Part shown: positions 40,349 to 42,450 of the stretch, piece after piece
How the letters are laid out: each line of letters opens with the position of its first letter
Numbering within the stretch: the first letter of the stretch is position 1
Assembly: GCA_003141955.1 (NCBI GenBank)
Contig: PLOC01000070.1
Location: 1-47,478 of the forward strand
From: Chloroflexota bacterium
GTDB lineage: Bacteria; Chloroflexota; Limnocylindria; Limnocylindrales; CSP1-4
Direction: 5' to 3'
DNA: 47,478 nucleotides
Made by a program: the position numbers and the translations under genes
The notes under the pieces: generated by a model
The model's input: only the letters and a program-made list of their open reading frames with translations
Database searches by the model: none
What the model was told of the DNA's origin: nothing

Positions 40349-41833
40349 CTATCCGGTCGGCGTCGACGTGGGCTGGCTCGTTGGCGCTGGAATCACCGAA
40401 GACGGGGTCGTCGAAGGCGAAGCAGCCGCTGGGGGCGTTGGCGGTGGAGTGATCGTGGCCGCGGGCCGAAGCGATCCCTGTACGGCCCGACCGGATGTCG
40501 CTTGCCCGAAGAAGAGCCGACCGCCACCGGCGTATAGGACGCCATCCGGAAGCAGCCACGCCTGGCCGCCGCCGGGCAGGCTGCCGATGTCGCCACCCTG
40601 ATCGAGCACGCGCCAGTGACCGTCGCCAACGCTGACGTAGAAGGTGGTGTTCCAGCCATCGGCAACCAGGATGTGCCGCCCGTCCGCGAGGGCCTGGAAC
40701 GGGAACGAGCCGCTCGTCCATAGTGGGGCTTGGTCCTCATCGAGGGTCCAGCTGACGCCGTCCGATGAATGCAGACCCAGGCTATCGGACCCAAGCAGAC
40801 CCAGATAGATCCCCATGTCGAGCGTCTGGCCATTGGGCAGCGTGGGCGAGATCCGTGACCACGTGAATCCATCGCCGGAAGCCCAGTACTCAAGGGTGCT
40901 CTGGTCGCCAAGCCTGGCTTCCCCCAAGGCCATGTAGCCCGAGGGTATCCGAACCACCTGCAGATCCAAGCTCTTCGACATGTCGTCGGGGGTGGACGCT
41001 TCGCGCCAGTTGATGCCGTCGGTGGTGACGTAGAGCAGCTTGGGATCGGTAACGTCCGCGCTGGTCGGGGCTGGAACGCAGATCACTGCACTCTCAGATG
41101 AGGTCGTCAGGCTCATCACGGACCCAGAGAACGGCAACAAGGAGGATGTCCAATCGACCCCGTTAGTCGAGGTCCAGATCCTGCTCGAGGTCAGGCACGG
41201 CCCCGCCGCGGTCTCATCGCACGAAGCGACGGGCTGCGAGAAAGCGAGCAGCTGGCCGCCCAGCGCCCCGAGGTATGGGACGTATTCAGGGCCGGAGACA
41301 CGGCTCCAGGACCGCCCATCAATAGAGGTCCACACCCCAGAACCGGTGCTCGCCGCCAGTCCGCCCGGCCACGCCACGACGGTGCCACTGCCGATGCTGG
41401 TCTCCCAGGGGTCTTTGGAGAATAGCCCGCCGGAGGTGGCGGTGATGTCGTGCCACTCGATGCCGGTCCACTGCTCGTTGGCCGGAACAGACCTGGCGGC
41501 AGCTTGCGAGGCGGCGACAGGTTCGGCGTAGCGCTGGGCAGCCAGGAGGACACAACCGGCGAGGGCCACGACGAGCGCCGCGACAATTCCAGCCATGACC
41601 TTGAGATGCAACCGGCCAGGCGCCAGAACCGGTTGCATGGCTGCCATCGAGGTGGGTCGGGTCGGTTTGACAGCGCCTCGGCCGAGGCCGGCAAAACGAG
41701 AAGCCGACACAGGATGCGCTTCTGGGAGCTGATGCAAGTAGTGATTGAGGGACCGTGCCACCGGCGGCTGTGGATCGGCCCCGATGTTCCGGAGCCGTCG
41801 CTCGAGCTCCTCGTCGGAATCGAAGCGGCTCAT
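40349..41833 (-). CDS. Membrane partner of ECF sigma factor with six propeller-like repeats
   Basis: A 494-residue protein. The N-terminal 75 residues are cytoplasmic and helical (DEELERRLRNIGADPQPPVARSLNHYLHQ). One membrane helix follows (about 78-98). The outer part has six repeats of the form W-S-x-D-G-x-x-W at about residues 168, 220, 269, 317, 355 and 400, resembling Asp-box repeats of beta-propellers. A Thr/Pro/Ser tail ends it. The ATG overlaps the sigma factor stop, so it is probably its anti-sigma factor or sensor, although no zinc-type anti-sigma His/Cys motif is seen. The outside signal is unknown. Confidence 0.85.
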   Translation of the reverse strand: MSRFDSDEELERRLRNIGADPQPPVARSLNHYLHQLPEAHPVSASRFAGLGRGAVKPTRPTSMAAMQPVLAPGRLHLKVMAGIVAALVVALAGCVLLAAQRYAEPVAASQAAARSVPANEQWTGIEWHDITATSGGLFSKDPWETSIGSGTVVAWPGGLAASTGSGVWTSIDGRSWSRVSGPEYVPYLGALGGQLLAFSQPVASCDETAAGPCLTSSRIWTSTNGVDWTSSLLPFSGSVMSLTTSSESAVICVPAPTSADVTDPKLLYVTTDGINWREASTPDDMSKSLDLQVVRIPSGYMALGEARLGDQSTLEYWASGDGFTWSRISPTLPNGQTLDMGIYLGLLGSDSLGLHSSDGVSWTLDEDQAPLWTSGSFPFQALADGRHILVADGWNTTFYVSVGDGHWRVLDQGGDIGSLPGGGQAWLLPDGVLYAGGGRLFFGQATSGRAVQGSLRPAATITPPPTPPAAASPSTTPSSVIPAPTSQPTSTPTG

Positions 41834-42378
41834 CGAGAAGCCTCCCTGGTCTGGCGATCCAGTTCGTATCGGAGGGCGCGGAGCGCGTAGTGGAGCCTCG
41901 ACTTGACGGTGCCGAGTGGCAGCTCCAACCGTTCAGCTATCTCCTCGAGGGACAGGTCCCGCCAGAATCTGAGCGCGAGCAGCGTCTGATGGTCCGGACT
42001 GAGGGTCGCCACGAGGCGCCCAACCTCGTCGCGAGCCAGAGCGGCGCGAAACGGATCGGCCGTCCTGATCTCGTTGCCCATCTGCTCATCCAGCGGCAGC
42101 GGCCGTATCCCCTTGCGATCCCGCAACCGGTTCTTGCAGACGTTGACGACGATCCGATCGAACCAGGAACCAAAACTGCTGCGATCGCGCAGTCTCGGCC
42201 AGGCCAGCCAGGCCTTGAGGATTGCCTCCTGCGTGGCGTCTTCGGCCTCCGAGGCGTCCCGCAGGAGGAAGCCGGCCAACCGGTACGCACCCGGCAGTTC
42301 CGGCTCGGCGAGATGGATGAACGCCGCGGACATCTCCTCGGCCGCCGTCCCAATCAGCACCCTGAGCGTCCCCTCCAT
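41830..42378 (-). CDS. ECF RNA polymerase sigma factor
   Basis: A 182-residue sigma-70 family ECF factor. Region 2 (about 25-95) has AYRLAGFLLRDASEAEDATQEAILKAWLAWPRLRDRSSFGSWFDRIVVNVCKNRLRD. Region 4 (about 125-175) has LSPDHQTLLALRFWRDLSLEEIAERLELPLGTVKSRLHYALRAL, a clear helix-turn-helix. No C-terminal extension is present. It would direct polymerase to promoters like the one in front of this gene. GGAG lies 8 nt before the ATG; the stop overlaps the membrane partner's start. Confidence 0.95.
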   Translation of the reverse strand: MEGTLRVLIGTAAEEMSAAFIHLAEPELPGAYRLAGFLLRDASEAEDATQEAILKAWLAWPRLRDRSSFGSWFDRIVVNVCKNRLRDRKGIRPLPLDEQMGNEIRTADPFRAALARDEVGRLVATLSPDHQTLLALRFWRDLSLEEIAERLELPLGTVKSRLHYALRALRYELDRQTREASR

Positions 42379-42425
42379 TCGTTCGACTCCATTCTCGGCG
42401 ACCCTTCGACCGCGACGTGCATCCA

Positions 42426-42450
42426 GACACGGCCCGGGTTGAAAAGGTTC
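42426..42450 (-). promoter_or_regulatory. ECF-type promoter of the sigma factor operon
   Basis: GAACC followed by TTTT at 42450-42442 on the minus strand, then CGTGTC (42431-42426), spaced 14 bp after GAACC. This is the AAC-plus-T-run and CGT form that ECF factors use. It suggests self-activation; the leader is about 40 nt. Confidence 0.6.

Follow-up and report, generated by a model that had tools for sequence, protein, structure and literature searches.

The window, a stretch of 47,478 nucleotides that takes up its entire source contig in a 2.8-Mb genome, encodes an ECF sigma factor and an overlapping partner that is very probably a membrane anti-sigma factor with a beta-propeller as its sensor (Table 1). 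Its binding and inhibition of the sigma factor are what we infer from the gene organization, the predicted fold and the near-exclusive link between the partner's cytoplasmic module and sigma genes. The two genes would form a self-inducing, surface-sensing unit. The partner's short N-terminal helical module would keep the sigma factor inactive at the membrane, which the partner would span once, displaying a seven-bladed propeller outside. Recognition of an external ligand or partner by the propeller would cause the module to free the sigma factor, through intramembrane proteolysis or a change of shape, and the freed sigma factor would transcribe its own operon from a GAACC...YGTC promoter. The genome has M50 site-2 protease genes, but so does each of the control genomes, which makes proteolytic release no more than plausible. 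A public protein from a 'Chloroflexi bacterium' MAG from a fen is 100% identical to the 494-aa partner.

Table 1. Features of the sigma/partner operon, and partner heads by contig in the same genome
Feature	Position	Strand	Basis
ECF sigma factor, 182 aa	41830..42378	-	Pfam Sigma70_r2 and Sigma70_r4 over cut-off
Sigma region 2	42112-42306	-	Pfam Sigma70_r2
Sigma region 4	41869-42009	-	Pfam Sigma70_r4
Partner, 494 aa, putative propeller-headed membrane anti-sigma factor	40349..41833	-	
ATGA overlap, sigma stop/partner start	41830..41833	-	ORF coordinates
ECF-type promoter GAACCTTTTCAACCCGGGCCGTGTC	42426..42450	-	Conserved 5' of sigma in relatives
-35 element GAACCTTTT	42450-42442	-	Part of ECF-type promoter
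-10 element YGTC (here TGTC)	42429-42426	-	Alignment with relatives
N-terminal cytoplasmic module, residues 1-40	41714..41833	-	Model helices, module profile
Membrane helix, residues 77-101	41531..41605	-	Hydropathy 2.81, model helix
Predicted seven-bladed beta-propeller, residues 122-452	40478..41470	-	Two AlphaFold2 models, fold matches
Repeat motif 1, SIDGRSW, residues 170-176	41306..41326	-	Motif scan
Repeat motif 2, STNGVDW, residues 222-228	41150..41170	-	Motif scan
Repeat motif 3, TTDGINW, residues 270-276	41006..41026	-	Motif scan
Repeat motif 4, SGDGFTW, residues 319-325	40859..40879	-	Motif scan
Repeat motif 5, SSDGVSW, residues 356-362	40748..40768	-	Motif scan
Repeat motif 6, variant SVGDGHW, residues 401-407	40613..40633	-	Motif scan
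Pro/Ser/Thr-rich tail, residues 455-494	40352..40471	-	Alignment with G037 and G044
SxDGxxW propeller heads	C73 (the window), C82, C1		
Asp-box/BNR propeller heads	C39 (twice), C75, C37, C56		
Kelch propeller heads	C56, C12, C5, C25		
Other partner heads: NfeD, DsbA plus LysM, FecR domain (C57), RskA_C, many without match			

The sigma protein matches Pfam Sigma70_r2 (1.2e-15, residues 25-89) and Sigma70_r4 (8.5e-16, residues 124-170) and exceeds the cut-off of the sigma70-ECF superfamily model TIGR02937. With regions 2 and 4, a length of about 180 residues and no region 3, it is an ECF (group IV) sigma factor. The 4-bp overlap with the partner described in the initial annotation is confirmed, the partner's ATG lying within the ATGA at the sigma stop. 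The operon is flanked downstream by valS and upstream by a divergent FAD-linked oxidase gene, both named from sequence. At the same valS locus in genome G050 the pair seems to have been lost, and a 46-codon remnant of the partner's C-terminal tail, 89% identical, is found there (L007:1501-1638, minus strand). In genome G042, a propeller gene with a membrane helix and without the cytoplasmic module is located just upstream of a sigma-propeller pair (L013:1444-2703, plus strand) and is perhaps a tandem duplicate acting as a decoy or co-receptor.

The operon had been described as preceded by an ECF-type promoter with a GAACC-type -35 element and CGTGTC as the -10 element. The promoter (GAACCTTTT...CGTGTC) is present and conserved in relatives, and its -35 element stands as described. 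The -10 element is shorter than proposed: the window's TGTCTGGA aligns with CGTCTGGA of the relatives, so the leading CG of CGTGTC does not belong to the conserved part here, which is YGTC. Upstream of their sigma genes, relatives carry TGAACCTTT, followed after approximately 12 more bases by CGTC. The strict form of the promoter is found ahead of 24 of 43 sigma genes (versus 0.0005 in shuffled sequence), and many of the remaining pairs in this set have variants such as GAACAAA...CGTC. The conservation of GAAC...YGTC upstream of sigma in relatives is that of a putative autoregulated promoter with an AAC-type -35 element.

The regulon search also scanned the upstream regions of the genome's other sigma genes for the promoter. 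The initially proposed form (GAACC-N-CGTGTC) yields 15 sites compared with 2 for a reversed control. The strict pattern has three occurrences in 2.8 Mb: ahead of this operon, ahead of the paralogous pair on contig C82, and within a repetitive coding region (C43:44285), where the match is likely due to chance. A conserved promoter whose strict form occurs only three times supports autoregulation, and the search suggests that the regulon is very small and possibly consists of the operon itself.

No Pfam or NCBIfam model matches the partner above its cut-off, and the partner's domain order is read from hydropathy and structure prediction. A single membrane helix is located by both methods (residues 79-97 by hydropathy, with slightly wider limits in the model). 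The short cytoplasmic helical part reported earlier is likewise recovered as two helices within residues 1-40 (5-19 and 27-34), predicted by AlphaFold2 with low confidence (pLDDT 55-69), and residues 36-78 are unordered in the model. A zinc anti-sigma motif is indeed absent, with no HxxxCxxC and no Cys ahead of the membrane helix. Together with the gene overlap and the conserved pairing with a sigma gene, the predicted topology of cytoplasmic N-terminus, membrane helix and outer domain agrees with the membrane anti-sigma organization that had been proposed. A search of the N-terminal module profile against the PDB returns chance-level matches only and no kinship to anti-sigma factors of known structure, and the RsgI N-terminal domain has no Pfam match in 19 family members at E 0.01.

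The gene order and single membrane helix also match sigma regulators of the FecR type, and one partner elsewhere in the genome (C57) contains a FecR domain. A dual regulator of this kind would hold the sigma factor yet be needed for its activation, with the released cytoplasmic piece helping the sigma factor and deletion of the partner silencing the regulon. However, FecR has no match in the window's partner, and ORF inspection finds no TonB-dependent receptor gene adjoining it; we regard a FecR-like role as improbable.

For the outer part, six Trp-ending repeats spaced 38-52 residues apart had been noted. These are retained as five exact matches to [ST]x[DN]GxxW and one variant, with Trp-to-Trp spacings of 52, 48, 49, 37 and 45 residues. 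A chance origin of the repeats is ruled out, given five exact motifs against a maximum of 2 (mean 0.04) in 20,000 shuffles of the repeat region. AlphaFold2 run with 19 homologues models residues 122-452 with pLDDT values mostly of 83-95, loops excepted, and the outer domain modelled alone has a mean pLDDT of 83.8 and a pTM of 0.83. In both models the outer part is confidently predicted to form a closed propeller of radial four-stranded blades, the outcome set in advance as a test of the proposed fold.

The number of blades differs from the six first suggested. Read in order, the strands of both models fall into seven four-stranded sets, so the propeller probably has seven blades. The six motifs are positioned between strands 3 and 4 of blades 1-6, and the seventh blade (residues 424-446) has no motif and is completed by an N-terminal strand (124-129); blade 5 is the poorest-formed in the model. 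Propellers dominate the structure comparison. XusB, GH74 xyloglucanases and a number of single-domain propellers match best, with Z up to 15.8. Blade number makes little difference to how well the propellers align, so these PDB matches alone leave six versus seven undecided. A sequence profile of the outer part finds Asp-box propellers, namely a DUF6242 protein, Sialidase B, SorCS2 and HCF136. This distant relation in the profile search does not extend to membership of the BNR/Asp-box family, as Pfam BNR_2 scores 14.7 bits against a cut-off of 31.4, and the window's motif SxDGxxW is one residue shorter than the canonical Asp-box SxDxGxxW.

In genomes G037 and G044, the partner extends into a second tandem propeller (L005:1480-3888, plus strand, and L006:1204-2925, minus strand, respectively). 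The Pro/Ser/Thr-rich tail of the window's partner aligns with the linker to this second propeller, so the window's form may have lost it.

The link between the partner and sigma factors is assessed with an N-terminal profile that covers the cytoplasmic part plus the membrane helix and was built from 18 relatives. All nine profile matches below 1e-5 in the window's own genome are sigma partners, carrying SxDGxxW, Asp-box (three), kelch (two) or other heads. Across 400 Chloroflexota genomes, all 22 matches below 1e-8 lie directly behind a sigma ORF whatever their outer domain; six of these were training loci, and the other 16 are also all behind sigma. Among propeller genes outside the training set, 25 of 28 with the module are adjacent to a sigma gene; for those lacking it the figure is 2 of 44 (Fisher p=7e-14). 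A neighbouring sigma gene therefore goes with the cytoplasmic module, not with the propeller. This is the pattern expected of an anti-sigma module. It indicates a functional linkage; binding and inhibition of the sigma factor by the module would be a further step. A Mantel test of sigma against N-terminus gives r=0.41, a value confounded by the difference in length between zinc-type and short modules.

The same comparison bears on the reading in which the propeller protein is an output of the sigma factor, a binding protein or adhesin anchored in the membrane and switched on by it. The promoter and operon structure are also compatible with such a role, and related propellers lacking the module mostly begin with lipoprotein-like signal sequences, so the fold is also used outside signalling. 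Against this, adjacency to sigma tracks the module instead of the propeller, and the same module occurs beside sigma genes on kelch, Asp-box and other heads, which leaves the output reading highly improbable. A merely secreted product is ruled out by the module's linkage to sigma and by the module-less propellers without sigma. The window's own genome also has three free-standing propellers of the window's type, with lipoprotein-like signals and no sigma gene nearby (L171 on C98, L201 on C94 and L202 on C43).

The putative anti-sigma arrangement is expanded in this genome. Of its 35 sigma region-2 matches, 33 are accompanied by a neighbouring partner ORF, which in 22 cases sits at an offset of exactly -4. 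At least 12 pairs are propeller-headed, with propellers of three sequence types (Table 1), and only a minority of partners are of the zinc type. Heads differ between close sigma paralogues; after that of C82, the sigma factor nearest to the window's belongs to an NfeD-headed partner. The partner on C20 (L050:1264-2850, plus strand; -4 offset) leads from a short N-terminus and membrane helix into a protease-like NfeD1b/NfeD protein that contains additional membrane helices. The partner on C81 (L064:1334-2524, plus strand) has a DsbA/thioredoxin-like domain plus LysM outside its membrane helix, which suggests redox or cell-wall sensing.

Such variety of heads also helps to evaluate what the propeller would recognize. 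Propellers commonly bind proteins, and the flanking valS and divergent oxidase genes hint at no ligand. The propeller of the putative anti-sigma factor could dock an envelope protein or protease and relay its state, with no direct sensing of a small molecule or glycan. This variant is unlikely, as the operon encodes no candidate docking partner and heads this diverse on one module speak more for differing inputs than for a shared scaffold.

With module-less copies counted throughout, 64 of 107 genomes in the family have window-type propellers, as do 78 of 177 in the class. For the phylum the figure is 24 of 400, and all but one of these 24 genomes fall in the same class. No relatives were found on plasmids.

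The initial annotation considered a propeller-bearing anti-sigma factor a little-known design. This is consistent with the literature searched, in which no propeller-headed anti-sigma factor was found described, although this is weak evidence with the main ECF re-classification, an ECF evolution study and the RsbN study outside that search. The pair is no isolated oddity, as the dozen or more pairs counted above indicate. ECF/anti-sigma pairs as such are known, and what appears to be new is the combination of a propeller head with a short two-helix module, expanded within one clade. The propeller-headed pairs look to be a sizeable group of environmental sensors that has received little description. 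To our knowledge, what most ECF systems sense is unknown. Because the outer head varies (SxDGxxW, Asp-box or kelch propellers, NfeD, DsbA) on a common short module, the signal side would be separable. The heads could be expressed alone for ligand screens, and the promoter is short and well-defined enough for reporters. The proposed design would also suggest a role for many of the approximately 33 sigma factors in a 2.8-Mb genome from an uncultured wetland lineage.

Several known systems share parts of this design. As in the membrane-anchored class I factors RseA, RsiW and RskA, the partner gene follows that of the sigma factor and encodes predicted cytoplasmic N-terminal helices, one membrane helix and an outer sensor. 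Class I anti-sigma domains average 101 aa (PMC7406223) and combine a bundle of three helices with a fourth one (PMC4598750), whereas helix is predicted over about 40 residues of the window's module, which shows no detectable kinship to them in sequence. The layout also resembles that of the class II factor CnrY, whose helices embrace its sigma factor (PMC4598750) and which likewise has a short cytoplasmic part with two helices (predicted here, at low confidence) and one membrane helix. The likeness is one of layout, with no sequence relation found, and CnrY senses through a separate protein, CnrX, whereas in the window's partner the sensor and the anti-sigma module would be parts of one protein. 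In the RsgI/SigI systems of Firmicutes, the outer part of the anti-sigma factor acts as the sensor (B. subtilis, PMC10202637); the window's family has propeller heads instead and no RsgI_N match.

Propellers are also known in other signalling settings. PknD of Mycobacterium tuberculosis combines one membrane helix with an outer six-bladed propeller sensor and feeds a sigma-factor pathway (PMC3322341), but on the cytoplasmic side it has a Ser/Thr kinase that targets an anti-anti-sigma factor, and no direct anti-sigma module. Hybrid two-component systems of Bacteroidetes use an outer sensor of predicted seven-bladed propellers for glycans (PMC3243724); their output is a phosphorelay, where that of the window's pair would be a sigma factor. 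Lastly, ECF57 sigma factors carry C-terminal WD40-like repeats (PMC8999054) that are fused to the sigma factor itself, whereas the window's propeller forms the predicted outer part of a separate membrane partner.
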